A DNA stretch of 64,000 nucleotides, from contig NZ_CP102282.1 of assembly GCF_025150745.1 (NCBI RefSeq), positions 1,685,501 through 1,749,500 on the forward strand, in the 5' to 3' direction. Every line of letters begins with the position of its first letter. The first letter of the stretch is position 1. The stretch comes from Eubacterium ventriosum. GTDB taxonomy: Bacteria > Bacillota > Clostridia > Lachnospirales > Lachnospiraceae. The position numbers were made by a program, and so were the translations under genes. The notes below the pieces were generated by a model, which ran no database searches, had not been told where the DNA came from, and was given only the letters and a program-made list of their open reading frames with translations. Positions 4,859-49,143 of the stretch are shown here, one piece after another.

Positions 4859-4867
4859 TTCTCCATT

Positions 4868-5674: not shown

Positions 5675-5699
5675 ATGTTATATTTCTCCTATAATGCAA

Positions 5700-5731
5700 C
5701 AAATTAGATACAATAAATTGCATCTAATTTG
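5700..5731 (-). repeat. Array spacer palindrome (degenerate copy)
   Basis: The stem caaattagat / atctaatttg encloses a 12-nt loop. It lies between one array gene's stop and the next gene's AGGAGAAA ribosome site. Similar copies are at 7413-7444, 8048-8079, 9766-9797 and 11484-11515; a perfect copy is at 12379-12410. In the minus-strand mRNA it would be an A/U hairpin between units. Without a T-run it may act in mRNA processing or stability more than in termination. Confidence 0.75.
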
Positions 5732-5756
5732 TTTAAAGTATTAAGTTAAAAGATGA

Positions 5757-6575: not shown

Positions 6576-6584
6576 TTCTCCGTT

Positions 6585-7387: not shown

Positions 7388-7461
7388 ACGTTATATTTCT
7401 CCTATAATGCAACAAATTAGATACAATAAATTGCATCTAATTTGCTGTTTTAATATATTAT

Positions 7462-8024: not shown

Positions 8025-8150
8025 ATTTTATTTCTCCTATAATGCAACAAATTAGATACAATAAATTGCATCTAATTTGTTTAAAGTATTAAGTTAAAAG
8101 ATGACTACCATATTTGCCAGTCAGTTATAAGTTCAAATTTTACAACTGTA

Positions 8151-8927: not shown

Positions 8928-8936
8928 TTCTCCGTT

Positions 8937-9740
8937 TTAATATTGTTCCCAATCATCGTTGGCTTCAAAAGAAACAACAGTGTTAGGAGTTACTTGATTT
9001 TTGTTGTTTAGAGTTAATTGCCAGACAATATCTGTTTCGTCGGTTTCGTCAGCATAGTGTGTAGAACCACAAACAAATTCTAAATACCTGTATGAAGAAT
9101 CATAATTATAGTGTTTTATGGCTAATTTTTTTAAAAAGGTTTTTAGAATGGTTATTTTTGTTATATTTATTATATTTTTTAATTTACAATTCATATTAGC
9201 ATAAAAGCAACGATAAGAAGAATTATTCACATCTAGAGAATTGCTGCGGCTACCAATATAAAAATAATCATTTTTAAAATTTGTTAAGGTGTAGTTATAA
9301 TAATAAGAGCCTTTCTTTTTATTGACAACTTTTAAATCTCCCCAGTAAGGTTCATAGTCAGATAAACTATAACAAGTCATACCAACAGGAACAAAGTAGT
9401 TAGTATTAATTTTGTATTTTTTAATCCAATGAGGATATAGCTTCTGTTTCTTTGTAATAATAGTGGAGGCTGAATATTTCTTGCCACCTTTTTTCTTGGA
9501 GTACCAGCCATCAAAAGTATATCCTTCACGTCTGATGGCAGGAGCGTAGCCACGCTTTTTGTTTACTTTGTTTTTTATTGTGATTTTTCGCTTGCTACGA
9601 TTGAGCTTTGTTTTGAAATAGCCATTGCTTGAATAATATGTAATGTTAACCTTCGAAGCTGCATTAGTTGGAATGGCAGGAATAAAGGATAGTGATAGTA
9701 TAATTGTTGAAAGAATAGTTAGATTAATTATTTTTTTCAT
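8937..9740 (-). CDS. Array protein 5: secreted Flg_new-repeat protein, A type
   Basis: The 267-residue A-type protein is intact: signal peptide, Flg_new repeat (GYTFDGWYSKKKGGKKY), and C-terminal domain with YEPYWGDLKVV, FVCGSTHYADET and the ending NDDWEQY. It is almost identical to the 10655-11458 protein and to the broken copy at 6585-7387, showing at least two recent duplications. It is the first gene of a pair with the frameshifted B-type gene. Confidence 0.82.
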   Translation of the reverse strand: MKKIINLTILSTIILSLSFIPAIPTNAASKVNITYYSSNGYFKTKLNRSKRKITIKNKVNKKRGYAPAIRREGYTFDGWYSKKKGGKKYSASTIITKKQKLYPHWIKKYKINTNYFVPVGMTCYSLSDYEPYWGDLKVVNKKKGSYYYNYTLTNFKNDYFYIGSRSNSLDVNNSSYRCFYANMNCKLKNIINITKITILKTFLKKLAIKHYNYDSSYRYLEFVCGSTHYADETDETDIVWQLTLNNKNQVTPNTVVSFEANDDWEQY

Positions 9741-9814
9741 ACGTTATATTTCTCCTATAATGCAACAAATTAGATACAATAAATTGCATCTAATTTGCTG
9801 TTTTAATATATTAT

Positions 9815-10645
9815 TTACCATACTTCCCAATCTGTTATACGTTGAAAATTAACAATGGTATCAGGAGTAAGTTGATTTTTATCATTCATTTTGATTGTCC
9901 ACCAAATATCTTCATATTCTGCATCGTCATCATCATTATCAAACTTACAATAACATTTTCCACATATAAAATCTATTGTATGCTTTTTTGAATTGTAATT
10001 ATATTGTTTTACACCAAGTTTTTTTAGAAAAACATTCATAGAAGTTGTTTTTTTGATATTAATTACATTTTTTAATTTACAATTAGCATATTGAATTGAA
10101 TAAGAAAAAGGTTTATCTTTATCTTCATCAGAGGATTCCATTACTAAAAAGTTGAGAATATCTTCAGATGATGTTTTGCATTTTACGATGCCAGGAAAAA
10201 CATGTTTTTTAATATTTTTCTTTAATACAGTCATAGAACCATAATATTTTTGAAATTCGTCTAAATTATCAAAACTTAATCCCATAGGAACAAAGTAATT
10301 AGTATTAATTTTGTATTTTTTAATCCAATGAGGATATAGTTTCTGTTTCTTGGTAATTATAGTAGAGGCTGAATATTTTTTTCCACCTTTTTTCTTGGTA
10401 TACCAACCATCAAAAGTATATCCGTCACGTCTGATGGCGGGAGAATAACCACGCTTTTTATTTAATTTATTTTTGATAGTAATTTTATTTTTGCTACGGT
10501 TAGGTTTTGCTTTGAAGTGACCTTTACCCGCATAATATGTAATGTTAACCTTTGATGCTGCATTAGTCTGAAAGGTAGGGATAAAGGTTAGTGATAAAAT
10601 AATTGTAAATATAATTGTTAAGTTAAGTAGTTTTTTCATTTTCAA
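9815..10645 (-). CDS. Array protein 4: secreted Flg_new-repeat protein, B type (variant)
   Basis: This 276-residue member has a B-type leader (MKMKKLLNLTIIFT), a Flg_new repeat (GYSPAIRRDGYTFDGWY) and a B-type C-terminus with CGKCYC, a DDDD run, YEDIWWTIKMND and the ending ITDWEVW. An inserted acidic segment (SSDEDKDKPFSYS) distinguishes it from the 5757 protein. It is the likely parent of the 3' part of the remnant at 7462-8024. Nine bases separate it from the A-type gene before it. Confidence 0.82.
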   Translation of the reverse strand: MKMKKLLNLTIIFTIILSLTFIPTFQTNAASKVNITYYAGKGHFKAKPNRSKNKITIKNKLNKKRGYSPAIRRDGYTFDGWYTKKKGGKKYSASTIITKKQKLYPHWIKKYKINTNYFVPMGLSFDNLDEFQKYYGSMTVLKKNIKKHVFPGIVKCKTSSEDILNFLVMESSDEDKDKPFSYSIQYANCKLKNVINIKKTTSMNVFLKKLGVKQYNYNSKKHTIDFICGKCYCKFDNDDDDAEYEDIWWTIKMNDKNQLTPDTIVNFQRITDWEVW

Positions 10646-10654
10646 ATCTCCATT

Positions 10655-11458
10655 TTAATATTGTTCCCAATCATCGTTGGCTTCAAAAGAAACAACAGTG
10701 TTAGGAGTTACTTGATTTTTGCTGTTTAGAGTTAATTGCCAGACAATATCTGTTTCGTCGGTTTCGTCAGCATAGTGTGTAGAACCACAAACAAATTCTA
10801 AATACCTGTATGAAGAATCATAATTATAGTGTTTTATGGCTAATTTTTTTAAAAAGGTTTTTAGAATGGTTATTTTTGTTATATTTATTATATTTTTTAA
10901 TTTACAATTCATATTAGCATAAAAGCAACGATAAGAAGAATTATTCACATCTAGAGAATTGCTGCGGCTACCAATATAAAAATAATCATTTTTAAAATTT
11001 GTTAAGGTGTAGTTATAATAATAAGAGCCTTTCTTTTTATTGACAACTTTTAAATCTCCCCAGTAAGGTTCATAGTCAGATAAACTATAACAAGTCATAC
11101 CAACAGGAACAAAGTAATTAGTATTAATTTTGTATTTTTTAATCCAATGAGGATATAGCTTCTGTTTCTTTGTAATAATAGTGGAGGCTGAATATTTCTT
11201 GCCACCTTTTTTCTTGGAGTACCAGCCATCAAAAATATATCCTTCACGTCTGATGGCAGGAGCGTAGCCACGCTTTTTGTTTACTTTGTTTTTTATTGTG
11301 ATTTTTCGCTTGCTACGATTGAGCTTTGCTTTGAAATAGCCATTGCTTGAATAATATGTAATGTTAACCTTTGAAGCTGCATTAGTTGGAATGGCAGGAA
11401 TAAAGGATAGTGATAGTATAATTGTTGAAAGAATAGTTAGATTAATTATTTTTTTCAT
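10655..11458 (-). CDS. Array protein 3: secreted Flg_new-repeat protein, A type
   Basis: This 267-residue A-type protein is nearly identical to the 8937-9740 product, differing at a handful of residues (for example GYIFDGWY against GYTFDGWY). AGGAGAAATATAAC gives a good ribosome site. The A-then-B pairing with 9815-10645 looks like the duplication unit from which the downstream pairs arose. Confidence 0.82.
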   Translation of the reverse strand: MKKIINLTILSTIILSLSFIPAIPTNAASKVNITYYSSNGYFKAKLNRSKRKITIKNKVNKKRGYAPAIRREGYIFDGWYSKKKGGKKYSASTIITKKQKLYPHWIKKYKINTNYFVPVGMTCYSLSDYEPYWGDLKVVNKKKGSYYYNYTLTNFKNDYFYIGSRSNSLDVNNSSYRCFYANMNCKLKNIINITKITILKTFLKKLAIKHYNYDSSYRYLEFVCGSTHYADETDETDIVWQLTLNSKNQVTPNTVVSFEANDDWEQY

Positions 11459-11540
11459 AAGTTATATTTCTCCTATAATGCAACAAATTAGATACAATAA
11501 ATTGCATCTAATTTGTTTAAAGTATTAAGTTAAAAGATGA

Positions 11541-12353
11541 CTACCATATTTGCCAGTCAGTTATAAGTTCAAATTTTACAACCGTACTAGGCATAATTTG
11601 ATTTTTATTATTCATTTTTATTGTCCACCATACATCTTCGTATTCGGCATCGTCATCGTCATCGACATTAGAAATGCAATAACATTTTCCACATATGAAA
11701 TCTAAAGTATGAGTTTTTGAATTATAATTGTACTGTTTTACACCTAGTTTTTTTAAAAACATACCCATAGAAGTTGTTTTTTTTATGTTAATAACGTTTT
11801 TTAGTTTGCATTTTGTATAATCAATAAAGTAAGCATCGGAATCTGATGTGGGCCAACTAGACATATAAATCAAATCTTTTTTGTGGGTTTTGCATATATA
11901 ATTACCAGGATAAACATCTTCTTCAACATTTTTATTGATTAAAGTAAGTTTACCAAAGTATTTTTGAAAGCTTTCTATATCGGGTAAACCTAATCCCATA
12001 GGAACAAAATAATTAGTGTCAATTTTGTATTTTTTTATCCAATGTGGGTAAAGCTTAAGTTTTTTTGTGACAATGGTAGAAGCTGAATATTTTTTCCCAC
12101 CTTTTTTCTTCGTATACCAACCGTTAAAAGCATATCCTTCACGTCTGATGGCTGGAGCGTAGCCACGCTTTTTATTTATTTTGTTTTTTATTGTGATTTT
12201 TCGCTTGCTACGATTGAGCTTTGCTTTGAAATAGCCATTACTTGAATAATATGTAATATTAACCTTTGTTGCTGCATTGGTTGGAATGGCAGGGATAAAG
12301 GTTAGTGATAATATAATTATTGAAAGCATAGTTAGATTAATTATTTTTTTCAT
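11541..12353 (-). CDS. Array protein 2: mosaic A-leader/B-tail Flg_new protein
   Basis: This 270-residue protein combines an A-type leader and repeat region (MKKIINLTMLSII, then GYAFNGWYTKKKGGKKY) with a B-type C-terminus. From LPDIESFQKYFGKL to TDWQIW that C-terminus matches the 5757-6575 protein in all but about one residue. The sharp switch in similarity suggests gene conversion or unequal crossover between array members. It stands alone between two palindromic spacers, not in a pair. Confidence 0.8.
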   Translation of the reverse strand: MKKIINLTMLSIIILSLTFIPAIPTNAATKVNITYYSSNGYFKAKLNRSKRKITIKNKINKKRGYAPAIRREGYAFNGWYTKKKGGKKYSASTIVTKKLKLYPHWIKKYKIDTNYFVPMGLGLPDIESFQKYFGKLTLINKNVEEDVYPGNYICKTHKKDLIYMSSWPTSDSDAYFIDYTKCKLKNVINIKKTTSMGMFLKKLGVKQYNYNSKTHTLDFICGKCYCISNVDDDDDAEYEDVWWTIKMNNKNQIMPSTVVKFELITDWQIW

Positions 12354-12378
12354 ACGTTATATTTCTCCTATAATGCGA

Positions 12379-12410
12379 CAAATTAGATGCAATCTATTGC
12401 ATCTAATTTG
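12379..12410 (-). repeat. Array spacer palindrome (perfect copy)
   Basis: Perfect 15-bp arms, caaattagatgcaat and attgcatctaatttg, flank a 2-nt centre. This is the most complete of six related spacers; the other five have lost pairing in the inner part of one arm, so this copy is closest to the ancestral form. It lies between the first and second array genes. Confidence 0.8.
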
Positions 12411-12427
12411 CTGTTTTAATATATTAT

Positions 12428-13231
12428 TTACCATACTTCCCAATCTGTTATAAGTTGAAAATTAACAATGGTATCAGGAGTAAGTTGATTTTTATCATTC
12501 ATTTTGATTGTCCACCAAATATCTTCATATTCTGCATCATCATTGTGGAAATTGCAATAACACTTTTTACATATAAAATCTATAGTGTGTGTTTTTGAAT
12601 TGTAGTTATATTTCTTTACACCTAATTTTTTGAAAAATGTGCTCATAGAAGTTGGCTTTTTTATATTAATGACATTTTTTAATTTACAATTTAGGTAGTC
12701 AATTTGGTAGGAATCAGAATCGTATCCGTACCAGGATGATATATATATCAAATCTCCTTTTTCATTTTTGCAATTAAACTTACCAGGATAAACACGCTTT
12801 TTCACACTTTGGCTAGTGATTGTAAGTTTGCCATAATACTTCTGAAAATCGTCAACCCCAGTCAAACTTAATCCCATAGGAACAAAATAATTAGTATTAA
12901 TTTTGTATTTTTTTATCCAATGTGGGTAAAGTTTTTGTCTTTTAGTTACAATTTTAGAAGATGTATATTTTACACCACCGCTTTTCTTTGAATACCAACC
13001 GATAAATGTGTAACCATTACGTCTTATAGCAGGAGCATAACCTCTTTTTTTATTAGTCATATTTTTTATGACAATTTTATGTTTGTTACGATTAGTTTTA
13101 GCTTTAAAATAACCTTTACCAGAATAGTAAGTAAGATTAACTCTGTTAGAAGCGTAAATACTTGAAACTGGAATAAAAGCAAGTGAAAGTATTACTGCAA
13201 ATAAAGTTAAAATATTAATTGTTTTTTTCAT
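12428..13231 (-). CDS. Array protein 1: secreted Flg_new-repeat protein, most divergent member
   Basis: This promoter-proximal 267-residue member has its own leader (MKKTINILTLFAVILSLAF), a variant repeat (GYTFIGWYSKKSGGVKY) and a B-type C-terminus (CKKCYC, YEDIWWTIKMND, ITDWEVW). It lacks the DDDD run of other B-type members. GGGAGG lies 7 bases before the ATG. Its divergence suggests it is the oldest copy and that later copies spread downstream of it. No membrane anchor or sortase motif is present, so it is probably released or held on the surface by charge. Confidence 0.8.
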   Translation of the reverse strand: MKKTINILTLFAVILSLAFIPVSSIYASNRVNLTYYSGKGYFKAKTNRNKHKIVIKNMTNKKRGYAPAIRRNGYTFIGWYSKKSGGVKYTSSKIVTKRQKLYPHWIKKYKINTNYFVPMGLSLTGVDDFQKYYGKLTITSQSVKKRVYPGKFNCKNEKGDLIYISSWYGYDSDSYQIDYLNCKLKNVINIKKPTSMSTFFKKLGVKKYNYNSKTHTIDFICKKCYCNFHNDDAEYEDIWWTIKMNDKNQLTPDTIVNFQLITDWEVW

Positions 13232-17644: not shown

Positions 17645-17926
17645 GTAAAAGGCGATGAGTGTGTAAGTAGATATATATTTTCCGTCAGAGAGAAAGACTC
17701 ACAGGCTGGAAGGTCTTTCAGGTTCAGATATATATTGAAATTCCCACAGGAGCTGCATTCACCAACAGATTATAAGTATGAATAATACTAAAGAAGGAAA
17801 CTAATCTAAGTAATGAATGACGTGTGTAGCGCGTTAAGCAGATAGAGTGTTCGTGATAATGATTACGGAAACTAGGGTGGTACCGCGGAGCAATCCGTCC
17901 CTATGGAACAGGTGCTTTTTTTTATT
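17645..17926 (+). promoter_or_regulatory. T-box leader (phenylalanine type) of pheST
   Basis: The T-box core AGGGTGGTACCGCGG is at 17874-17888. It is followed by ATCCGTCCCT and GGTGC plus a run of eight T residues, the usual antiterminator/terminator arrangement. Upstream, about 230 nt form the stem I region, with a long symmetric stem from agatatatat (near 17668) to atatatatt (near 17725-17740). The specifier is probably the TTC in GAAATTCCC near 17743; I infer this partly from the downstream genes. Uncharged tRNA-Phe would bind and allow read-through into pheS. Confidence 0.85.
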
Positions 17927-17930
17927 TTTA

Positions 17931-17991
17931 GTGTAGAAAAGTCTTAATCCACATATGCTTGCATAAATGTGGATTTAAGACCTTTCTACAC
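17931..17991. repeat. Long inverted repeat after the T-box terminator
   Basis: About 23 bp pair between the arms GTGTAGAAA-AGTCTTAATCCACAT (17931-17954) and ATGTGGATTTAAGAC-TTTCTACAC (17967-17991), with a short loop. It has no T-run and lies directly before two hairpin repeats. It could be an RNA processing site or a small insertion element. Confidence 0.65.
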
Positions 17992-17993
17992 GC

Positions 17994-18083
17994 TCCCATA
18001 ATGAGCATAAAAGTGAAGCGAAAGCTTCACGATATGCGAATGATGGGAAAAGGATTGCGAGAGTGCGAAGCACGTAGCAATCC
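17994..18083. repeat. REP-like double-hairpin repeat, copy 1
   Basis: The unit runs GAGCAT-aaaa-gtgaagc-gaaa-gcttcac-gat-ATGCGA, enclosed by an outer stem tcccat/atggga. A second hairpin follows, ggattgc...gcaatcc, with an inner gtgc-gaa-gcac stem. Copy 2 at 18125-18213 has the same inner sequence but different, still complementary, outer stems. Confidence 0.75.
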
Positions 18084-18124
18084 AAAAAATAAAATATGAA
18101 AAAGTGTGAGAGTTGTTTTTGCGT

Positions 18125-18213
18125 ACTTCAATGAGCATAAAAGTGAAGCGAAAGCTTCACGATATGCGAATTGAAGTTAACGGATTGCGAGAGCACGCAG
18201 TGCGTAGCAATCC
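18125..18213. repeat. REP-like double-hairpin repeat, copy 2
   Basis: The core is identical to copy 1 for 40 bases (from 18131). The outer stem here is acttcaat/attgaagt, and the inner stem of the second hairpin is gcac/gtgc, the reverse of copy 1. These paired changes keep the fold and support a structured element. It lies 66 bases before pheS. Confidence 0.75.
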
Positions 18214-18279
18214 GTTAGGAAAACAAAAAATTGACTCACAAACCTGTTATTTTAAAATCTATAAAGAGAGGAATTTATC

Positions 18280-23367: not shown

Positions 23368-24660
23368 ATGGAAAAATATACAGTAAAGAAATTAAACAAA
23401 AAAAATAATATAAATGTGTCAGTGCCGGGCTCTAAAAGTATCACTAACAGAGCTTTAATGCTGGCGGCTATGTCAGATGGCATATGCACACTTAACGGTG
23501 TATTGTTTAGCAGTGATTCAAGAGCTTTTCTTGACTGTCTTATTTCATTAGGTTTTAGTGTTCAGATAGATGAAGAAAGTGCTAATGTAGTGATTAAGGG
23601 TGAAAATGGAAGAATCCCTAACAGGAAGGCTACAATTAATGTTCAAAGTGCAGGAACAGCAGCAAGATTCATGACTGTTTTTCTTGCTGTGGCAGGTGGT
23701 GACTATACTCTTCAATCTTCAGAACAGATGAAGAAGCGTCCAATGAGTGAGCTTCTAGGTAGCCTGACAGCTAAGGGTGTAGAGATTAAGTGCTTAGAAG
23801 AAGAAGGACATTTTCCTTTTGAAATTCATTCTAAGGGAATTAAGTCAGGTAATATTAAAATCGACACGACTACCAGCAGTCAGTATGCCAGCGCATTGCT
23901 TATGGCATCTGTAATGAATGGCATGAATGTGGAACTTACGGGTTCAAGAGTGGACGGTGCCTATATTAAGATTACAACAAATATGCTTAAGCAGTTTGAC
24001 ATTGATTTTGATAGAGAAGGCAATACATATATAATAAAGAAGCAAAGCTATATTTGTAATGTATATAATGTTGAACCGGATATGTCTGCTGCATGTTATT
24101 TTTATGCTATGGCAGCTATTCTTGGTGTTAAATCTATTGTTAAGGGAATACATAAAGATTCAATGCAGGGGGATATTAAGTTTATTTATGCTCTTGAAAG
24201 AATCGGTTGTGTAATAACAGATAAGCCGGAAGGTCTTGAAGTGGATGGAATAAGTGCTGTAGGATATGAAGGCATTGATATAGATATGTCTGATTTTTCA
24301 GACCAGGCACTTACAATGGCTGTTGTGGCAGCTTTTGGAAAGACTGAGACAAGAATCAGAAATATTGGTCATATAAGAGGTCAGGAATCAGACCGTGTTC
24401 AGGTTATTGTTAACGAACTTAACAGAATGGGATGTGATGCTAAGATTGTAGAAGAAGGCGGTAGTACAGATGTAATTATAACGCCGGGCAAACTTCACGG
24501 AGCAGAAATTGAAACTTATGATGACCACCGTGTGGCAATGAGTTTTGCAGTGGCAGGTCTTGCAGTTGATGGAATTGTAATAAAGAATCCAATGTGCTGC
24601 AGAAAGACTTTTGAAAACTACTTTGATGTTCTGGAAACAATTGAAAAGGAAGACGAATAG
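23368..24660 (+). CDS. aroA: 3-phosphoshikimate 1-carboxyvinyltransferase (EPSP synthase)
   Basis: This 430-residue shikimate-pathway enzyme joins PEP and shikimate-3-phosphate. It shows the N-terminal VPGSKSITNRALMLAA lysine/serine motif, VQSAGTAARFMTVFLA, and the C-terminal DDHRVAMSFAVAGL catalytic segment. The length is normal. With tyrA at 37 kb it shows that chorismate and tyrosine synthesis are at least partly kept although the trp pathway is reduced. It lies close behind queA and is probably co-transcribed. Confidence 0.95.
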   Translation: MEKYTVKKLNKKNNINVSVPGSKSITNRALMLAAMSDGICTLNGVLFSSDSRAFLDCLISLGFSVQIDEESANVVIKGENGRIPNRKATINVQSAGTAARFMTVFLAVAGGDYTLQSSEQMKKRPMSELLGSLTAKGVEIKCLEEEGHFPFEIHSKGIKSGNIKIDTTTSSQYASALLMASVMNGMNVELTGSRVDGAYIKITTNMLKQFDIDFDREGNTYIIKKQSYICNVYNVEPDMSAACYFYAMAAILGVKSIVKGIHKDSMQGDIKFIYALERIGCVITDKPEGLEVDGISAVGYEGIDIDMSDFSDQALTMAVVAAFGKTETRIRNIGHIRGQESDRVQVIVNELNRMGCDAKIVEEGGSTDVIITPGKLHGAEIETYDDHRVAMSFAVAGLAVDGIVIKNPMCCRKTFENYFDVLETIEKEDE

Positions 24661-36369: not shown

Positions 36370-37473
36370 CTATTTTCTTTTTATTACATTATATCTATGG
36401 CGTTCAAGTTGTTCCACAGCTTTGTTGGCTGATGTTTCATCATAGAATGAAATCTTTAATACGCCATCTTCAAATTCTCTATTATGTATAATGCCGATGT
36501 TTTTGATGCTGACTCCGTTTGTTGCAAGTATTGTGGCAATTGTAGCTATTGCACCGGATTCATCTATAATGTTGCAGTAAACATTGTAGCTTCTTGAAAT
36601 AAGACTGTTGTTACGGTCTTCAATGCTGTCGCGGTAGTCACGGCTTTCTGAAATTAAATCAAAAATGCCCTGTCCCTTATGCTGGTCAAGGTCTTCTTTA
36701 ATTTCAAGAAGGCTGTCAATATATTTCTGTAACATGTCACTAATATTAGTATTGTTTGTCATACAAATCTGTTCCCACATTTCAGGTGAAGAAGAAGCAA
36801 TTCTTGTAATATCCTTAAAACCACCGGCTGCCATAGTTTTCATATATTCATTTTTTGAATCATTATGCTTAACCAGATTAACAAGGCTGGCAGCAATAAG
36901 ATGTGGCAGGTGACTGATTGTAGCAACTACCTTATCATGTTCTTCATATGATATATTAATTGGAATAGCCCCAATACCCTGAACGATTTCAGTAAACTCT
37001 TCAACACGCTCTTCACTAACAGCGTCAGTAGGAGTAATGGCATAGTATGCATTTTCAACCAGACGGTCATTAGCATAAGTGTAGCTTGTTTTTTCAGAAC
37101 CGGCCATTGGATGTCCGCCAATAAAATTTTTCTCCAGCCCAAGTTCTTCAACAGCCTTATGGATATTGCCTTTAACACTTCCCACGTCAGTGATAATGCA
37201 ATCATCTTTTATAATATCTTTAAGAATCTTTAAATATTCAACATTTTTTTCAACAGGAGTGCAAAGAAAAATATAATCACACTCATTAAAAGTTTCATTA
37301 ACTTGTGGAACAGCAATATTGGCAGTTCCGTCATTGATAGCCATAACTCTAGGCTCAGCGCTTCGATTGTATACAATAATCTTACAACTTGGGTAAACAC
37401 GTCTAAGTGCCTTGGCAATTGAACCCCCTATTAAACCAATTCCTACAAATCCAAAAGTAATATGTTCTCTCAT
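36370..37473 (-). CDS. tyrA: Prephenate dehydrogenase with ACT domain
   Basis: This 367-residue NAD(P)-dependent enzyme makes 4-hydroxyphenylpyruvate for tyrosine. The Rossmann motif VGIGLIGGSIAKALR lies near the N-terminus, with ITDVGSVKGNI and the catalytic GGHPMAGSEKTSY region following. ISHLPHLIAASLV is the conserved helix of the C-terminal dimer domain. A C-terminal ACT domain (about 295-365) fits feedback control by tyrosine. The only in-frame start is at 37473, whose near ribosome site is weak. A strong GGAGGAGG lies about 35 bases upstream, separated by a small tctga-ttta-tcaga hairpin. Confidence 0.92.
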   Translation of the reverse strand: MREHITFGFVGIGLIGGSIAKALRRVYPSCKIIVYNRSAEPRVMAINDGTANIAVPQVNETFNECDYIFLCTPVEKNVEYLKILKDIIKDDCIITDVGSVKGNIHKAVEELGLEKNFIGGHPMAGSEKTSYTYANDRLVENAYYAITPTDAVSEERVEEFTEIVQGIGAIPINISYEEHDKVVATISHLPHLIAASLVNLVKHNDSKNEYMKTMAAGGFKDITRIASSSPEMWEQICMTNNTNISDMLQKYIDSLLEIKEDLDQHKGQGIFDLISESRDYRDSIEDRNNSLISRSYNVYCNIIDESGAIATIATILATNGVSIKNIGIIHNREFEDGVLKISFYDETSANKAVEQLERHRYNVIKRK

Positions 37474-40027: not shown

Positions 40028-40327
40028 AACAGTGATTAAACCGTTGATCGGGAGTAAGTAGTTACAAGAGATGTTTTTCAGAGAGTTGTCGGTTGGTGTG
40101 AGACAATAAACTATCAGTAATGAATGGACCTGAGAGGGCAGCTTGAAACCAATATGATAATCATAGGAAGTAGACGCTGACGGATCCTTACCGTTATAGA
40201 AGGTAGCATATGATGGTATGCAATGAGTGAATGTGTTATACATTAATTTGGGTGGCACCGCAGAAGTTTATTATAGCTTTTGTCCCTTTACGAGAAGTAG
40301 AGGGATGAAAGCTTTTTCTTTTGTCCC
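40028..40327 (+). promoter_or_regulatory. T-box leader (tryptophan type)
   Basis: The T-box core TGGGTGGCACCGCAG is at 40249-40263. The terminator that competes with it is AGCTTTTGTCCCT paired with AGGGATGAAAGCT (about 40275-40312), with a T-rich tail TTTTTCTTTTG. In stem I, the specifier loop reads GAA-TGG-ACC near 40126-40134, giving the tryptophan codon TGG followed by a purine. Low charged tRNA-Trp should release transcription of the genes downstream. It now controls only the scar and trpBA. Confidence 0.88.
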
Positions 40328-40350
40328 AAAATAAAAATAAGGAGGACAAC

Positions 40351-40502
40351 ATGAAAACACAATCGTTTAACGAAATCGAAAATTTGACTAAAGAGTACAG
40401 TATGATTCCAATATGCAAGGAGATTTATGCAGCGGAGTTGAAACTGACGGAATTAAGGACAAAGAAAAAATCAAAAAAGTAATAGAAATTGTAAGGCAAT
40501 AA
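40351..40502 (+). pseudogene. trpE'-'trpF deletion scar
   Basis: After a GGAGGACAAC ribosome site, an ATG opens a frame reading SFNEIENLTKEYSMIPICKE, then IYA. This is the recognisable N-terminus of anthranilate synthase component I (TrpE). Right after IYA, at about 40427-40433, the sequence changes in a different frame to SGVETDGIKDKEKIKKVIE and IVRQ, stop at 40500-40502. That is the C-terminal end of phosphoribosylanthranilate isomerase (TrpF), whose SGVE-DG-KD motif is highly conserved. In the trpE frame the product is a 43-residue nonsense peptide ending at 40482. The genes normally between them (trpE body, trpG, trpD, trpC, trpF body) are missing, with trpB starting 18 bases later. Confidence 0.85.
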
Positions 40503-40520
40503 TTGCAGATAGGAGATAAA

Positions 40521-41726
40521 ATGAGCGATACAAATAATACAAACTCAAAAGGACGATTTGGAAGATATGGCGGACAGTATGTTCCGGAAACATTAATGAA
40601 CGCAGTAAATGAATTGGAAGAAGCATATAATCATTACAAGGACGATCCTGAATTTAATAAGGAATTAACAGACCTTTTAAATAACTATGTAGGCAGACCA
40701 TCTTTGCTTTATTATGCAGAAAAAATGACAAAGGATTTAGGTGGCGCAAAGGTTTATTTAAAGAGAGAAGATTTAAACCATACAGGTTCTCACAAACTTA
40801 ACAATGCCATGGGTCAGGTTTTACTTGCAAAGAAAATGGGAAAAACAAGAGTTATAGCTGAAACAGGTGCAGGACAGCATGGTGTGGCAACAGCAACGGC
40901 AGCAGCTTTAATGGGAATGGAATGTGAAGTCTTCATGGGAAAAGAAGACTGCCAAAGACAGGCACTTAACGTATTTAGAATGCAACTTTTAGGAGCAAAA
41001 GTTCATCCTGTAACAAGTGGAACAATGACATTAAAAGATGCAGTAAACGAAACTATGAAGGAATGGACTAACAGAATTGATGACACACATTATGTTTTAG
41101 GTTCAGTAATGGGACCACACCCTTTCCCGACTATTGTACGTGATTTTCAGGCAATAATCAGCAAGGAAATAAAAGAACAGTTAATGGAAAAAGAAGGCAA
41201 ATTACCTGATGCAGTAATCGCCTGTGTAGGCGGCGGTTCAAACGCAATCGGTGCTTTCTACAATTTCATTGAAGATAAAGACGTTAAATTAATCGGTTGT
41301 GAGGCAGCAGGACTTGGAGTTGATAATCCAAAGAACGCAGCAACAATGGCTAACGGTTCAGAAGCTATTTTCCACGGAATGAAGTCTTTATTCTGCCAGA
41401 ATGAATATGGTCAGATTGCCCCTGTTTATTCAATTTCAGCAGGACTTGATTATCCGGGAATCGGACCTGAACATGCAATGCTTCAGGCAGAAAAAAGAGC
41501 AGAATATGTGGCAATTACAGATGAAGAAGCAGTTGATGCTTTTGAATATTTGTCAAAAACAGAAGGAATTATTCCTGCAATTGAAAGTTCTCACGCAATT
41601 GCATATGCAATGAAGTATGTGCCAACTTTGGACAAAGATAAAATCGTAGTAGTTAACGTGTCAGGTCGTGGTGACAAGGACGTGGCAGCAATAGCAAGAT
41701 ATAGAGGAGTACAGATTTATGAGTAA
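40521..41726 (+). CDS. trpB: Tryptophan synthase beta chain
   Basis: This 401-residue PLP enzyme condenses indole with serine. The start [17 protein letters not shown], the PLP lysine in [31 protein letters not shown] and the phosphate-binding [12 protein letters not shown] are all intact. I chose the ATG at 40521, preceded by AGGAGATAAA; an upstream TTG in frame has no good ribosome site. It overlaps trpA by 8 bases, so the two are translationally coupled. With the rest of the pathway deleted upstream, it probably works from scavenged or exogenous indole, unless trpEGDCF lies elsewhere. Confidence 0.97.
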
Positions 41727-42492
41727 AATAAAAGAAGCATTTAAGAATGGAAAAGCATTTATACCTTTTATAACAGGAGGAGATCCTGACCTTGAAACAA
41801 CAAAGAAACTTATTATTGAAATGCAGAATGCAGGGGCAGATATAATTGAAGTGGGAATACCTTTTTCAGACCCAATCGCAGAAGGACAGGTTATTCAGAA
41901 GGCAGATTTAAGATCATTGGAAGCAGGCTGTACAACAGATAAGTTAATGGATGCTTTAATTGAAATAAAAGACCGGATTCATATTCCATTAGTTTTTATG
42001 ACATACATAAATGTTATTTACAAATATGGGAAAAAGAAATTTATGGACAGGTGTAGTGAATGTGGAATTTGTGGAATAATTGTTCCGGATTGTCCTTATG
42101 AAGAAAAAAATGAACTTTTGCCTGAATGTACAGAGGCAGGAATTGAATTGATTTCTATGATAGCTCCAACATCTCACGACAGAATAAAAATGATTGCAAA
42201 GGAAGCTCAGGGATTTCTTTACTGCGTATCTTCACTTGGAGTTACAGGTGTTAGAAAAGAAATAAAAACAGACATTAACGGAATGATTGAACTTGTTAAG
42301 GAAGTTTCAGATGTACCTTGTGCAGTAGGTTTTGGAATTTCCACACCAAAGCAGGCAGAAGATGTATGCAAATATGCCGACGGAGCAATTGTTGGCAGTG
42401 CTATTGTAAGAATTGTGGCAGAACATGGAAAAGACAGTGTACAATATGTTTCACAGTATGTAAAAGAAATGAAAGAGGCTGTAAGAAAATAG
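41719..42492 (+). CDS. trpA: Tryptophan synthase alpha chain
   Basis: This 257-residue TIM-barrel subunit cleaves indole-3-glycerol phosphate to indole for TrpB. It has [12 protein letters not shown], the catalytic glutamate and aspartate region [19 protein letters not shown], and the phosphate loops [10 protein letters not shown] and [11 protein letters not shown]. No damage is seen. Its natural substrate is made by TrpC, whose gene is missing from this operon, so its retention is notable: it may act mainly as the allosteric partner of TrpB. Confidence 0.97.
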
Positions 42493-42623: not shown

Positions 42624-42677
42624 ATACTCTGTAAAGTGCTTATGGACACAGAGAAAAAGGAAAATTTAATAATTATA

Positions 42678-42768
42678 ACAGGGGAGCTTGTAGGCAGGCT
42701 GAGAGGAAGTAATCAACTTCGACCCATGAACCTGATTTGGATAATGCCAACGTAGGAAGAAATCAATT
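42678..42768 (+). promoter_or_regulatory. TPP riboswitch (THI element)
   Basis: The conserved core elements appear in order: ACAGGGGAGC, the pyrimidine-sensing GGCTGAGAGG (42697-42706), CGACCC at 42720-42725, then ATGAACCTGAT, TTGGATAATGCCA and CGTAGGAAGA. Thiamin pyrophosphate binding should favour the terminator just downstream and shut off thiM-cytX. Confidence 0.95.
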
Positions 42769-42782
42769 TTAAGATTCATTGC

Positions 42783-42816
42783 GGACAGACCAAATAGGTT
42801 TGTCCTTTTTCTTTTG
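42783..42816 (+). terminator. Riboswitch-controlled terminator
   Basis: ggacagacc (42783-42791) pairs with ggtttgtcc (42797-42805), followed by TTTTTCTTTT. It is the expression platform of the TPP riboswitch. Confidence 0.88.
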
Positions 42817-42843
42817 TGAAAAATTAAATTCAGGAGGACAAAG

Positions 42844-43665
42844 ATGTTTAAAGAATGTTTAGAAAATGTTAGAAAGAATGTGCCATTAGTACACAATATT
42901 ACAAATTATGTAACAGTAAATGATGTTGCAAATGTTTTACTTGCCTGTGGAGGAAGCCCTATTATGTCTGATGACATTGATGATGTGGTAGATATTACAT
43001 CTATTTGTGGTGGACTTAACATTAATATTGGAACATTAAACAAGAACACTATTCCTTCAATGTTTGCAGCAGGAAAGAAAGCAAACGAATTAGGTCATGT
43101 TGTTTTACTTGACCCTGTTGGAGCAGGAGCAAGTGCCTTAAGAACTAACACAGCTAACGAACTTATGAAAAAAATAAAGTTTGATGTTGTTAGAGGAAAT
43201 ATTTCAGAAGTTAAGACTTTAATGGTTGGAAGTGGAAGTACTAAAGGTGTTGACGCTGACGTAGCCGATAAAGTTACAGATGAAAATCTTGAAGAAACTA
43301 TTTCTAAATTAAAAGCTTTTTCAAAAGCAACAGGAAGCATTATTGCCGTAACAGGAGCAATTGACTTAGTTTGCAATAGTGAAAAATGCTATGTAATAAG
43401 AAATGGTAAGCCACAGATGAGTTCAATTACAGGAACAGGTTGTCAGCTTTCAGGACTTATGACAGCATATTTAGTAGCTAACTCTGAAAACAAGTTAGAA
43501 GCAGCCGCAGCTGCAGTTTGCTTAATGGGACTTGCAGGAGAGATTGCTTATGACAGAATGCAGGATGGTGATGGCAACTCAACATACAGAAACAGAATTA
43601 TTGATGCTATCTACAACATGGATGGAGAAACATTGGAAAAAGGAGCAAAATATGAAATCAAGTAA
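42844..43665 (+). CDS. thiM: Hydroxyethylthiazole kinase
   Basis: This 273-residue kinase phosphorylates 4-methyl-5-hydroxyethylthiazole, the thiazole half of thiamin. Motifs: PLVHNITNYVTVNDVANVLL at the start, LLDPVGAGASALR, VRGNISEVKTL, and the catalytic TGTGCQLSGLMTAY. The length is normal. CAGGAGGACAAAG precedes the ATG. It overlaps thiE by 14 bases, which points to translational coupling under the TPP riboswitch. Confidence 0.96.
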   Translation: MFKECLENVRKNVPLVHNITNYVTVNDVANVLLACGGSPIMSDDIDDVVDITSICGGLNINIGTLNKNTIPSMFAAGKKANELGHVVLLDPVGAGASALRTNTANELMKKIKFDVVRGNISEVKTLMVGSGSTKGVDADVADKVTDENLEETISKLKAFSKATGSIIAVTGAIDLVCNSEKCYVIRNGKPQMSSITGTGCQLSGLMTAYLVANSENKLEAAAAAVCLMGLAGEIAYDRMQDGDGNSTYRNRIIDAIYNMDGETLEKGAKYEIK

Positions 43666-44299
43666 TACTACAACAGATGAGTTATTACTATATGCAGTAA
43701 CAGACAGAGCCTGGCTTGGAAACGAAACACTTTATGAACAGGTTGAAAAATCATTAAAGGGTGGAGTAACTTTTGTACAGCTTAGAGAGAAAAAACTTGA
43801 TGAAGAAAGTTTTTTACAGGAAGCCATTGAAATAAAAGAGTTATGCAAAAAGTATAACGTTCCATTTGTAATAAATGATAATGTAGACATTGCCATAAAA
43901 ATGGATGCAGACGGAGTACACGTTGGACAAAGCGATATGGAAGCAGGAGACGTTAGAAAGAAACTTGGTCCTGACAAAATTATTGGCGTTTCAGCCCAGA
44001 CAGTCGAACAGGCAATTTTAGCTGAAAAACACGGAGCTGACTACTTAGGAGTTGGAGCAGTATTTCCAACAGGCTCAAAAGATGATGCAGAAGATGTACC
44101 TTTTGAAACATTAAAAGCCATATGTGAAGCGGTAAGCATACCAGTAATCGCAATTGGCGGAATAACAAAGGACAACGTAAAAGAACTTGCAGGAAGCGGT
44201 ATTTGCGGAATCGCAGTAATAAGTGCCATATTTGCAAGCAAAGACATAGAAACTGCAACAAAAGAACTAAAAGTCAACACAATAAAAGCTGTAAAGTAG
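43652..44299 (+). CDS. thiE: Thiamin-phosphate synthase
   Basis: This 215-residue TIM-barrel enzyme joins HMP pyrophosphate and thiazole phosphate to thiamin monophosphate. It shows YAVTDRAWLG, VTFVQLREKKLDEESF, FVINDNVDIAIKMDADGVHVGQ-type DGVHVGQ, and GADYLGVGAVFPTGSKDDA. I place the start at 43652, inside the end of thiM, because AAGGAGCAAAAT lies just before it and homology begins there; the open frame continues upstream without meaning. The HAD phosphatase gene begins 8 bases after its stop. Confidence 0.96.
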   Translation: MKSSNTTTDELLLYAVTDRAWLGNETLYEQVEKSLKGGVTFVQLREKKLDEESFLQEAIEIKELCKKYNVPFVINDNVDIAIKMDADGVHVGQSDMEAGDVRKKLGPDKIIGVSAQTVEQAILAEKHGADYLGVGAVFPTGSKDDAEDVPFETLKAICEAVSIPVIAIGGITKDNVKELAGSGICGIAVISAIFASKDIETATKELKVNTIKAVK

Positions 44300-44307
44300 G
44301 AGAACAA

Positions 44308-44973
44308 ATGTCAACAGGATTTATATTTGATGTAGATGGAACAATACTAGACTCAATGGGAATATGGATGAACGTAGGAGAACTATATCTAAAAGATATG
44401 GGAATAAAGGCGGAACCAAATCTTGGAGAAATTCTATTCGAAATGACAATGAATGAAGGTGCAGAATACATACAAAAAAAGTATAATCTAAACCTTACAA
44501 CAGAAGAAATATGCACCGGAATAAACAACCGTGTATACAAATTCTACGAAAAAGAAGCAATGCCAAAACCAAAAGTTATCGACTTTATAGAACAAGCCTA
44601 CGAGAACAAAATCCCAATGACAATAGCAACGTCAACAGACAGACCAATGATAGAAGCAGCTTTCAAAAGACTGCACATAGACAAATATTTTAAAAAAATA
44701 TTTACCACGACAGAGGTTGGGTATGGAAAAGACAAACCGGACATCTTCATAAAAGCAATGGAAGAAATGGGAACAACACCAAAGCAAACATGGCTATTTG
44801 AAGATGGAGCATACTCAATAGAAACAGCCAAACAACTAGGCATAAAAACAATAGGAATCTACGATCCTGCAAGCGAAAAAGACCAGGAAAAAATAAGAAA
44901 CCTAACAAACATCTACATAAAAAATTGGACAGAACACAAAACCCTACTTAACCAAATACAAAACAACAAGTAG
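44308..44973 (+). CDS. HAD-superfamily phosphatase in the thiamin operon
   Basis: This 221-residue protein has the HAD nucleophile motif FDVDGTILDSMG (Asp8, Asp10), motif II TIATSTDRP, a lysine in GYGKDKPDIF, and an acidic motif FEDGAYSIETAKQLG. The helical cap between residues 15 and 85 fits beta-phosphoglucomutase-like phosphatases. TAGGAGAACAA precedes the ATG. Placement between thiE and thiD suggests dephosphorylation of thiamin phosphate or a pathway phosphate ester, but a general sugar-phosphatase is possible. Confidence 0.85.
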   Translation: MSTGFIFDVDGTILDSMGIWMNVGELYLKDMGIKAEPNLGEILFEMTMNEGAEYIQKKYNLNLTTEEICTGINNRVYKFYEKEAMPKPKVIDFIEQAYENKIPMTIATSTDRPMIEAAFKRLHIDKYFKKIFTTTEVGYGKDKPDIFIKAMEEMGTTPKQTWLFEDGAYSIETAKQLGIKTIGIYDPASEKDQEKIRNLTNIYIKNWTEHKTLLNQIQNNK

Positions 44974-45027
44974 AAACAACCTAAACAAAAAACAACAGGG
45001 AAAAACTATTTAATCAAAAACAAACAA

Positions 45028-45104
45028 CAGGGTTTCCTATTATTCAAACAAACAATAATAAACCCTGACAAAGCGATAAATTGGGGGCACCACCTTATAT
45101 CGCT
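45028..45104. repeat. Two hairpins in the thiE-phosphatase/thiD gap
   Basis: The first hairpin pairs cagggttt-tattatt with aataata-aaaccctg (45028-45067). Read on the minus strand it is followed by T-rich sequence. The second pairs agcgata with tatcgct (45072-45104). Neither is a standard plus-strand terminator. The stretch 44974-45166 has no gene. Confidence 0.5.
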
Positions 45105-45166
45105 ATACAAAACACAAGCCAACCTAAAAGGAACAACTTGTGAACCACAAAAACTAAAAACTTACA

Positions 45167-45406
45167 GGCAAAACATTATATAGTGAAAGTACTATTATCA
45201 CCGGCGGAAGAAAATTTTGAAAACAAACAATAGGCAGATTTTGGCAATTTTGCGAGCATAGTGTAAAGCGAGAAACCTACTGTTTGAGCCGTAGGCGAGT
45301 TTAGGTTTTCGCTTTACAATAGACGGCGGAGCAAAATAACAAAATCAACGTGTTTGTGACAAAATTTTCTTTCGCCGGTGAGGAAAACTATCAGTAAAGT
45401 TTTGCC
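45167..45406. repeat. Long imperfect palindrome, MITE-like or structured RNA, directly before thiD
   Basis: The outer arms are 45198-45219 (tcaccggcggaagaaaattt...) and 45360-45381, pairing 21 of 22 bases. Weaker pairing extends outward to GGCAAAAC (45167-45174) and GTTTTGCC (45399-45406). Inside, GTAAAGCGAGAAACCT pairs with AGGTTTTCGCTTTAC, and CCTAC pairs with GTAGG around a 10-nt loop. Almost the whole 184-240 nt can fold as one rod. No coding frame is present. Its right end reaches the thiD ribosome site. It could be a non-autonomous mobile element or a cis-acting RNA. Confidence 0.7.
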
Positions 45407-45422
45407 GGAAAAGGAGAAAAGA

Positions 45423-46211
45423 ATGAACACAGCATTAACAATTGCAGGAAGTGATTCTTGTGGAGGCGCCGGAATACAAGCAGACATAAAGACAATGACA
45501 GCTAATGGAGTTTATGCCATGAGTGCTATTACAGCCTTAACTGCTCAAAATACAACCGGCGTATCAGACATCTATGAAGTAAGCCCTGAATTTTTACAGG
45601 CACAGCTAAAAGCTATATTTGAAGACATAACACCGGATGCCATAAAAATAGGAATGGTATCATCAAGTGACTTAATCAAAACAATAGCTAAAAGCCTAAA
45701 AGAATACAATGGAAAGAACATAGTTCTTGATCCCGTTATGGTTGCAACAAGCGGAGCAAAATTAATAAGCGATGATGCCATAAGCACTTTAAAGGAATAC
45801 TTAATTCCTTTGGCAACAGTAATAACACCAAATATTCCGGAGGCAGAAGTATTATCCAATATGGAAATACATAACGAAGAGGAAATGATAAAGGCAGCAG
45901 CAGTTATTAGCGAAAAATATGACTGCGCCGTATTATGCAAGGGCGGTCACAGCATAAATGATGCCAACGACCTTCTTTACAGAAACGGTGAATACAAGTG
46001 GTTCTATGGTAAGAGAATTAACAATCCTAATACACATGGAACAGGATGTACACTTTCCAGTGCCATAGCTTCAAATCTTGCAAAAGGCAGAGATTTGGAT
46101 ACATCAGTGGAAAAGGCAAAAAAATATATTTCAGGAGCATTATCAGCAATGCTTGATTTAGGAAAAGGCAGTGGTCCTATGAATCATGCATTTGCAATTA
46201 AGTGCGACTAA
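45423..46211 (+). CDS. thiD: Hydroxymethylpyrimidine/phosphomethylpyrimidine kinase
   Basis: This 262-residue ribokinase-fold enzyme phosphorylates HMP twice to make HMP-PP for ThiE. It starts MNTALTIAGSDSCGGAGIQA and has AMSAITALTAQNT, KIGMVSS, LDPVMVATSGAKL, and the C-terminal NTHGTGCTLSSAIASNLA active-site loop. I chose the ATG at 45423, which has GGAAAAGGAGAAAAG before it; the frame open upstream lies within the palindromic element. cytX follows after 21 bases. Confidence 0.95.
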   Translation: MNTALTIAGSDSCGGAGIQADIKTMTANGVYAMSAITALTAQNTTGVSDIYEVSPEFLQAQLKAIFEDITPDAIKIGMVSSSDLIKTIAKSLKEYNGKNIVLDPVMVATSGAKLISDDAISTLKEYLIPLATVITPNIPEAEVLSNMEIHNEEEMIKAAAVISEKYDCAVLCKGGHSINDANDLLYRNGEYKWFYGKRINNPNTHGTGCTLSSAIASNLAKGRDLDTSVEKAKKYISGALSAMLDLGKGSGPMNHAFAIKCD

Positions 46212-46232
46212 AAAAGGAAAGAGGTACATAAA

Positions 46233-47402
46233 ATGGATAAAAAAGGGACATCAATATTTAGTAATAGTTTAATTTGGTTTGGAGCAGGTGTATCAATTGC
46301 AGAAATTGTAACAGGTACATATCTTGCTTCACTTGGAATGGAAAAAGGCATTCTTGCGATTATTATCGGACACTTAATTGGCTGCTCACTTTTATTCCTT
46401 GCAGGAGTAATCGGTGCAAAGACAAAGAAAAGTGCAATGGAAACAGTAAAGATAAGTTTCGGTCAGAAAGGAAGTATTCTGTTTTCAGTATTAAATGTTA
46501 TTCAATTGGCAGGATGGACAGCCATTATGATTTATGACGGCGCACTTTCAGCCAACGGAATTTTTAATACAGGAAACTGGGTGTGGTGCATTGTAATCGG
46601 TGTACTTATTATTATTTGGATTTTTATTGGAATAAAAAACATCGAAAAAGTAAATGTTGTTGCAATGACAGCTTTATTTATTCTAACAATTATTTTGTGT
46701 AAAGTTGTTTTCTTTGACAACGGTGTGGCAACAAGTATTCCTGATGATGGATTAACGTTTGGTGCGGCAGTAGAACTTGCAGTAGCAATGCCACTTTCCT
46801 GGCTTCCATTAATCAGTGATTACACAAGAGAAGCAGAAAAGCCAATTAAGGCAACAGCAGCAAGTGCCATTGTTTACGGAGTTGTAAGCTGTTGGATGTA
46901 TATAATTGGAATGGGTGCAGCTATTTTTGCACAGAATGCAGGAATCGACCAGATAATGTTAAAGGCAGGTCTTGGAATAGCAGGACTTCTTATAATTGTT
47001 TTTTCAACAGTTACAACAACATATTTGGATGCATATTCAGCAGGTGTTTCAAGTGAAACAATCTTTAGCAAAATTAATGGAAAGTATATGGCAATTGCAG
47101 TAACAATCGTTGGTACAATAGCAGCAATTATTTACCCAATGGACGATATTACTGATTTCCTTTATTTAATAGGTTCAGTGTTTGCACCTATGATTGCAAT
47201 TCAAATTGCAGACTTCTTCATTATCAAAAACAATAGCGAAGATAAAAACGTTGAAATTACAAATATTATAATCTGGGTTATTGGATTTATTCTATACAGA
47301 TATCTTATGACAGTTGATATAATTGTTGGAAATACATTGCCTGATATGGCAGTTACTGTTATTATATGTATTATAGTCAGTAAATTTAAAAAGGCTAAAT
47401 AA
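46233..47402 (+). CDS. cytX: CytX-type hydroxymethylpyrimidine transporter
   Basis: This 389-residue NCS1-family membrane protein has about 12 hydrophobic segments. The N-terminal WFGAGVSIAEIVTGTYLASL and the conserved PLSWLPLISDYTREA are the typical marks of CytX/CodB-like carriers. Genomic clustering with thiM, thiE and thiD behind a TPP riboswitch makes HMP uptake the likely job. AAAGAGGTAC precedes the ATG. Confidence 0.88.
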   Translation: MDKKGTSIFSNSLIWFGAGVSIAEIVTGTYLASLGMEKGILAIIIGHLIGCSLLFLAGVIGAKTKKSAMETVKISFGQKGSILFSVLNVIQLAGWTAIMIYDGALSANGIFNTGNWVWCIVIGVLIIIWIFIGIKNIEKVNVVAMTALFILTIILCKVVFFDNGVATSIPDDGLTFGAAVELAVAMPLSWLPLISDYTREAEKPIKATAASAIVYGVVSCWMYIIGMGAAIFAQNAGIDQIMLKAGLGIAGLLIIVFSTVTTTYLDAYSAGVSSETIFSKINGKYMAIAVTIVGTIAAIIYPMDDITDFLYLIGSVFAPMIAIQIADFFIIKNNSEDKNVEITNIIIWVIGFILYRYLMTVDIIVGNTLPDMAVTVIICIIVSKFKKAK

Positions 47403-47472
47403 GTAGCGCAGATTATTTTGACTTAAAGAACAATCATATATAATCTGTGCCAAATGGGAAATGGAGAAATGT

Positions 47473-49143
47473 ATGATTAATTATGGATTTTCAATAAAAG
47501 GAAAGTCCCACAGTACCAGAAATATGGCCTGTCAGGACGCTAATAAAGTAATACAACTTAATAATGGATGCTCAGTAGGTTTAGTAGCTGACGGTGTAGG
47601 AAGTGCAAAATCTTCCGATATAGGAGCAAAGATTGCAGTAGAAAAAGCAGGAGAATATTGTAGTGAAAATATTAATTCCGGTATGAATTTAGACCAACAA
47701 TTGCAGGTATTAAAGGATTCTTTTTCTTATGCATTAAATAGCATTAACCAGTATGCAACAGAGAACAATGCACAGATTGAAGATTTCGATACAACTCTTA
47801 GCGGAGCGATTTATGATGGACAAAGCATTGCTTATGGACACGCCGGGGATGGTGGCATAGTTGTAAAAAAGAATGACGGAACTATGGATATCATAACTGA
47901 ACAGCAACAGGGTGAGAACAAGCAGTATGTTAAGCCATTGAGAGCAGGAGAAGGCAGTTGGAGCTTTGGAAAGTTAGATAACAACATTGCTTCAGTTATG
48001 CTTGTTACAGATGGTATTCTTAATGAACTTATTTCACCATTTTTGTTAAATGCCACAGACAGTGTTGCAAAAGCAACAGGTCAGAAGAAAGTTTACAATT
48101 CAGCAGCAGAATTTCTTATGAATCCTGACTGTGTTATGAATAATAAGTCATTTAACAATCCTAAGAACATTCTTGAAAGTTTCTTAGACGGAGATATGGA
48201 CAGAAATGTTTTTTCTAATTGCTTGAAGAATGGATATAGTAAGTTTTTCGACGAAAATCTTACAAAAAGATTGTGCGACGGAATGGCTAAGTATAGCTAT
48301 CCTGTTTGGGCAATAGACCAGATTACAGACGACAAAACTGTTGTATGTATGATGAATGAACAGGCAAAGGTTTCATGCCAGCCACCTGCATTTTACAGCG
48401 AACCGGATTGGCAGGGATTAAAAACCACATATGAGAAAATGGTTCATCCTGAAAAATTTGCTAATGAACAGCCTAAGAAAGATTTGGAAAGTACACAGCA
48501 GATTAATACAGACAACAATGCCAAAAAGCAAAGTCAGAACAAACCTAAGTCAGAAGACAATGCTAAGAAGCAGTCTGACAATAATAAAAACAAAACAAAA
48601 AAGACAAAGAAAACTAAGACTAAAAAGACCAGAGGCAGAAGCAAAAAGTCAAGAGGAGGCATAAGCACTCCAAGCTTAGGTCGCAGGGAGAGAAGAGGAA
48701 GAAGAGGCAGACGTCAGAGAAAGCAGCATCATTTCTTCACTAACCTGTTATTATTCTTAATTCTTATTTGTATGGCTGCAGCAGTTGCAGTGGGAGGTTT
48801 GTTTGTATATAAACGTTATTACCAGAATAGAAATAATAATGATAGCCAGACTGAAAGTGTAAATAAGAATAGCAAGTCAGATACAAACAGTGGAGATTCA
48901 AACGGAAGCGATGATGTAGGTTCTGATAATGGTTCAGATAGTTCAACTGGAAGTGATTCAGGAAGTTCAGATGACAGTTCCAGTGGAAGTTCAGAAAAGT
49001 CAGATAGCGATTCTAGTGGAAGTTCTGATTCAGGAAGTTCAAGCTCAGATTCATCTAATAACGGAAGTAGTAGCGATTCATCAGATTCAGGTGACAGTTC
49101 ATCAAGCGATGGCACTGATTCACAGGCAGTTGATGGAGAATAA
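47473..49143 (+). CDS. Membrane-anchored PP2C-type phosphatase with a Ser/Asp-rich outer tail
   Basis: This 556-residue protein starts with a PP2C domain: QDANK (about 22-26), LVADGVGSAKSSD (about 38-50), YGHAGDGGIVVKK, LVTDGILNE and DDKTVVCMM give the metal-binding aspartates. A long Lys/Arg-rich linker follows (about 335-418), then one membrane helix (about 420-445). About 105 residues made almost wholly of Ser, Asp, Gly and Asn end the protein. The topology puts the phosphatase inside and the tail outside. I chose the ATG at 47473 because GGAG lies 6 bases before it; an in-frame ATG at 47461 is the alternative. No kinase gene is adjacent. Confidence 0.75.
   Translation: MINYGFSIKGKSHSTRNMACQDANKVIQLNNGCSVGLVADGVGSAKSSDIGAKIAVEKAGEYCSENINSGMNLDQQLQVLKDSFSYALNSINQYATENNAQIEDFDTTLSGAIYDGQSIAYGHAGDGGIVVKKNDGTMDIITEQQQGENKQYVKPLRAGEGSWSFGKLDNNIASVMLVTDGILNELISPFLLNATDSVAKATGQKKVYNSAAEFLMNPDCVMNNKSFNNPKNILESFLDGDMDRNVFSNCLKNGYSKFFDENLTKRLCDGMAKYSYPVWAIDQITDDKTVVCMMNEQAKVSCQPPAFYSEPDWQGLKTTYEKMVHPEKFANEQPKKDLESTQQINTDNNAKKQSQNKPKSEDNAKKQSDNNKNKTKKTKKTKTKKTRGRSKKSRGGISTPSLGRRERRGRRGRRQRKQHHFFTNLLLFLILICMAAAVAVGGLFVYKRYYQNRNNNDSQTESVNKNSKSDTNSGDSNGSDDVGSDNGSDSSTGSDSGSSDDSSSGSSEKSDSDSSGSSDSGSSSSDSSNNGSSSDSSDSGDSSSSDGTDSQAVDGE

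Follow-up and report, generated by a model that had tools for sequence, protein, structure and literature searches.

The window analyzed here (the whole stretch of 64,000 nucleotides from the Eubacterium ventriosum genome, numbered from its first base) contains intact tryptophan synthase genes, trpB and trpA, preceded by the remnants of trpE and trpF and by a T-box leader. The leader (40035..40290, + strand) matches RF00230 with 125.4 bits, above the Rfam gathering threshold of 93, contains the T-box core GGTGGCACCGC, and has UGG (Trp) as its specifier. The same aligned column holds UUC in front of pheS (named by Pfam) and CUC in front of a LeuA-like gene (named by eye; one genome). A pattern scan located a terminator-like stem of 17 pairs with a T run (40275..40313, +), recovering one such element versus 0.3 ± 0.6 in shuffled sequences; the corresponding promoter scan was uninformative (2 found versus 2.9 expected). 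A ribosome site, AGGAGG, follows at 40340-40345 (+). The trp leaders of two relatives in the genus are likewise T-boxes (121.7 bits in G015 and 124.1 bits in G005). Hence, the view of the preliminary description that a functional-looking regulator and ribosome site were kept is borne out by the T-box score, the terminator-like stem, and the AGGAGG motif. Other RNAs in the window include a Phe T-box (17646-17905) followed by a tandem pair of Clostridiales-1 RNAs (RF01699), one at 17923-18091 and a shortened one at 18114-18225, and then pheS at 18280, as well as a 6S RNA (325-502; 62.4 bits).

The first gene after the leader is a frame of 43 codons (40351..40482, +). From the ATG at 40351, its first 27 codons (40351-40431; MKTQSFNEIENLTKEYSMIPICKEIYA) align without gaps to the TrpE N termini of relatives in the same genus. 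The remaining codons come from trpF DNA in the wrong register, and the frame ends at a TAA at 40480-40482. Since a Pfam scan of the 43-aa product recovered no family, the assignment of this stub to trpE rests on the alignment with relatives. The trpF tail (40422..40502, +) lies in a different frame with its stop at 40500-40502; it was recognized by alignment with relatives and by the PRAI profile (PF00697), whose one match in the whole genome falls at 40422-40487 and covers profile positions 171 to 192 of 193 (E = 1.9e-4; 22.2 bits, just below the curated cutoff of 22.7). The two gene ends meet at the junction GATTTATGCAG (40422..40432, +), which matches each of the two corresponding sites of G005, the one in trpE and the one in trpF, in 10 of 11 bases. 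The alignment and the PRAI match confirm the earlier proposal that 27 trpE codons are joined, out of frame, to the end of trpF. Its figure of 23 trpF codons stands for the unambiguous part of the tail but not as a full count, which reaches up to 26 when the junction is included.

Downstream, trpB (40521..41726, +; TIGR00263, 655.4 bits against a cutoff of 392.45) is preceded by AGGAG at 40512-40516, and its frame overlaps that of trpA (41719..42492, +; TIGR00262, 284.4 bits against a cutoff of 102.35; PF00290, 290.1 bits). With both scores above the cutoffs, trpBA can be called intact, as had been stated. The acidic residues of the relatives' TrpA proteins, which we take to be catalytic, are kept in the window TrpA. 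The N terminus of TrpB (40521-40545) has about 7 extra residues relative to the trpB frames of loci L003 to L006, which begin MSKGRFG. A prephenate dehydrogenase gene, tyrA (36370..37473, -; PF02153 and PF20463), is a neighbor, and an EPSP synthase gene, aroA (23368..24660, +; PF00275, 334.7 bits), lies elsewhere in the window; by Pfam, genes of both types do remain there, as the preliminary description had it. The region after trpA (42670-49143) holds a TPP riboswitch, thiM-, thiE-, and thiD-like genes, a cytosine/purine/thiamine-type permease gene, and a further frame. Compared with L003, this thiamine block looks like an insertion, because the frame that follows trpA in L003 resembles, by eye, the window frame at 49285. 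Farther off, the window carries ten adjacent paralogous genes (4046-13231, -) of about 200 to 276 codons with signal-peptide-like starts, in which 300-nt blocks recur ten times and some pairs are 98 to 100% identical; the one paralog that was scanned has a Listeria-Bacteroides repeat domain (PF09479, 31.1 bits).

Comparison with the genus places this arrangement in context. Both trpE and an orthologous trpB are found in 15 of 23 genus genomes and neither in 7 (6 of which are <90% complete), so that the window's genome alone has trpB without trpE; the orthologous TrpB proteins of the 15 others are 77 to 88% identical to that of the window. In both G015 and the window, the trp locus lies next to tyrA and an EF-G-like gene, and in G015 it consists of a T-box and trpEGDCBA. 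The order trpEGDCFBA occurs in G005 (where trpA is cut by a contig end), G003, G021, G016 (in two contig pieces), the second operon of G002, and Eubacterium uniforme. This order matches the one implied by the scar. The main trp operon has no trpF between trpC and trpB in 11 of the 15 genomes, and in all 11, trpF is encoded elsewhere (loci L165, L172 to L181, L095 to L098, L100 to L105, and L107 for these observations). The five tails of these nonoperonic TrpF proteins that were read are all unlike the operon type, one of them being 26% identical to E. uniforme TrpF, and it is possible that the nonoperonic trpF represents a gene displacement.

The trpE and trpF sites that correspond to the junction are separated by 4,370 nt in G005, 4,306 nt in G003, 4,297 nt in G021, and 4,520 nt in E. 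uniforme. Together with the presence of both gene ends and the gene order of the relatives, these distances support the proposal that a single internal deletion explains the scar. One deletion of about 4.3 to 4.5 kb in a trpEGDCFBA operon would have taken out trpG, trpD, and trpC together with most of trpE and trpF, leaving trpBA and, upstream, the T-box leader and the first ribosome site. It probably arose when two short stretches of similar sequence, one early in trpE and one late in trpF, mispaired. We infer slipped mispairing rather than observe it, and this step is uncertain because the two 11-nt sites share 9 bases in G005 yet only 4, 6, and 5 in G003, G021, and E. uniforme, respectively. 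Of 19,600 position pairs between the trpE start and the trpF end of G005, 5 reach 9 of 11 and none is higher. After such a deletion, uncharged tRNA-Trp would switch on tryptophan synthase alone.

The missing genes were then sought in the whole genome, which is one contig of 2,856,089 bases and 99.97% complete. Across this genome, neither trpE (TIGR00564) nor trpD (TIGR01245) had a match at E ≤ 1, trpF had nothing beyond the tail described above, and trpC (PF00218) had one partial match of 14.4 bits, below the cutoff. The last lies in a frame that reads by eye as PdxS, with PdxT beside it, and was rejected as a trpC gene. As controls, the trpE, trpD, trpC, and trpF models each matched 14 of 14 genomes, with TIGR00564 scoring above its own cutoff in 5 of them. 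Within the trp locus itself, trpG is absent as well. The genome-wide searches therefore bear out the claimed loss, in that no complete trpE, trpD, trpC, or trpF was detected and the pattern is that of a TrpAB-only pathway. TIGR00564 also picks up a second protein of the chorismate-binding type in G014 (381.9 bits); since the same model found nothing in the present genome, the latter may also be without PabB- and MenF-type enzymes. A search for tryptophanase likewise produced no convincing candidate: genome-wide, Beta_elim_lyase gave eight weak matches at E ≤ 1, with only the best, at 34.2 bits, above the cutoff of 27, and the best two of these eight frames read by eye as NifS-like cysteine desulfurases.

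Outside the window, the same genome has a second T-box with a UGG specifier (G000:C1:1448030-1448347; AAATGGACC), which scores 72.1 bits, below the gathering threshold of 93, and carries ATGGACC. It precedes three consecutive frames for a binding protein, a permease, and an ATPase. The sole NCBIfam match of the binding protein is TrpX (NF041285), at 209.7 bits, which fails the equivalog cutoff of 390. Proteins 70 to 72% identical to it occur in 4 of the 22 other genus genomes, all four of them with trpE and trpB; 3 more genomes have weak matches (E about 6e-4) and 15 have none, and the 7 genomes without trpE and trpB have no strong match either. From this distribution, the importer is older than the deletion and not tied to the loss. 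Since a UGG T-box precedes a TrpX-like ABC importer in this genome, uptake of tryptophan is at least as likely as the use of indole.

To assess the age of the scar, substitutions were counted between the window and G005: 8 changing and 11 silent in the trpE stub and 4 and 8, respectively, in the trpF tail. Free drift would predict about 83.5% (stub) and 80.7% (tail) changing substitutions (P = 5e-5 and 4.5e-4); the test is indirect, since each pair also counts change in the lineage of the relative, where constraint has acted throughout. The share of changing substitutions is about the same in intact pairs (7 changing and 10 silent for G015 versus G005; 6 and 8 for G005 versus G003), the exception being the window-G014 trpE pair (15 and 8), the highest of ten pairs. 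Neither the stub nor the tail has clearly more amino acid changes than intact relatives do, and with moderate support the scar looks young, so the loss is probably recent, as had been suggested. It follows that intact trpBA genes are expected whether or not they are used, and their integrity is poor evidence of use. Along the branch leading to the window, the ratio of nonsynonymous to synonymous change is low for both trpB and trpA, and none of 10 branch comparisons with relatives (5 per gene) gave significant relaxation of selection; the lowest P values were 0.186 for trpB and 0.051 for trpA, the latter in the direction of more change in the window. The trpA alignment comprised 16 of 20 sequences, G005, G016, G017, and G002a having been dropped by the motif filter.

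On these grounds, our favored reading, to which we give a probability of roughly 0.62, is that the deletion is real and left a predicted tryptophan auxotroph that lives mainly by uptake, with TrpBA adding tryptophan made from indole. A shortage of tryptophan would induce the TrpX-like importer and TrpBA together; imported tryptophan would probably be the main supply, uptake being the safer guess, and TrpBA could add to it from serine and indole made by neighbors. The preliminary description had gone further, holding that the cell makes tryptophan from indole. Given the importer behind a UGG T-box and the expectation of intact trpBA in a young scar, we rejected indole as a demonstrated nutrient; from the chemistry of the enzyme, it is only a possible one.

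A possible but rather unlikely alternative is a real deletion in a cell that imports all its tryptophan, trpBA being a leftover that has not yet decayed. The importer behind its UGG T-box would suit such a cell, the low number of changing substitutions in the stub and tail would leave little time for decay, and 7 other genus genomes are without both trpE and orthologous trpB (again noting that 6 are <90% complete). Against this, no break is seen in the T-box, the terminator, the ribosome site, or either gene, and trpBA may be able to persist alone, as suggested by a survey of 395 genomes of the order with a completeness of ≥97%, in which tables of trpA and trpC matches were compared by hand. 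Matches to trpA were found in 329 of the 395 and to trpC in 320, and 11 genomes had trpA without a trpC match. In six of the 11, all of different genera, trpA is strong (the window's genome, G214, G315, G250, G348, and G375); the weak matches (E > 1e-35) in G165, G241, G378, G044, and G068 were set aside. G207 and G355 have trpC matches only at E near 5e-4 and no trpA. The two of the five other strong-trpA genomes that were read, G214 and G315, have trpBA without other trp genes in the stretch, and draft gaps may explain some of these cases. Their 10-kb stretches contained nothing better than E = 0.78 for trpE, trpG, trpD, trpC, and trpF, no T-box, and no Rfam match at E ≤ 0.01. Going beyond the favored reading, one could see in the 6 of 395 genomes an end state reached repeatedly in the order and in the deletion an adaptive step toward a T-box-induced indole-scavenging module, which we consider unlikely.

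Less probable still is that the junction reflects misassembly or a deletion private to one isolate: the species is represented by one genome, but that genome is a single contig, 99.97% complete, in which trpE, trpD, trpC, and a whole trpF are not found elsewhere, and a similarity of 11 nt is too short to mislead the usual assemblers. That unrecognized or unrelated enzymes complete the pathway is scarcely credible, since, despite other TIM-barrel enzymes in the genome such as the one matched by the trpC model, a substitute would be required at each of four steps, and all 15 of the other genus members that have an orthologous trpB also have trpE.

The favored reading can be set beside several known systems. 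In genital Chlamydia trachomatis, an intracellular pathogen in which the TrpR repressor operates, the upstream trp genes have been lost, trpBA has been kept, and indole from neighbors is used. The present locus is similar in having lost the upstream genes and retained trpBA, with indole from neighbors a possible substrate here too; it differs in belonging to a free-living relative within the Lachnospiraceae and in having a T-box. Among human gut genomes, Ashniev et al. (2022; PMC9026213) distinguish a variant A1 with TrpA and TrpB only in 14 of 2,856 genomes. Like that variant, our genome keeps tryptophan synthase alone and is predicted to need indole or tryptophan; unlike the portion of that account available to us, which gives neither a scar nor a leader, the present locus has both. 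In gut Bifidobacterium, labeled indole and a trpB mutant showed that added indole is converted to tryptophan via TrpB (PMC11085991); the enzyme there is a TrpC-TrpB fusion protein, and in the present genome such a conversion is only a possibility. Streptococcus suis is reported to have a T-box-controlled TrpX uptake system (PMC9382623), which resembles the T-box before the TrpX-type importer here, the differences being that the TrpX of E. ventriosum falls below the curated cutoff and that a cut trp operon lies in the same genome.

A literature search, with matches judged mostly without full text, met no description of this trpE-trpF scar. The locus exemplifies a partial pathway loss of a known kind, with an unusually readable scar; the loss has probably been caught early, both gene ends being still legible. 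It offers a clean test case for whether TrpAB-only bacteria live on the indole of their neighbors or on imported tryptophan.
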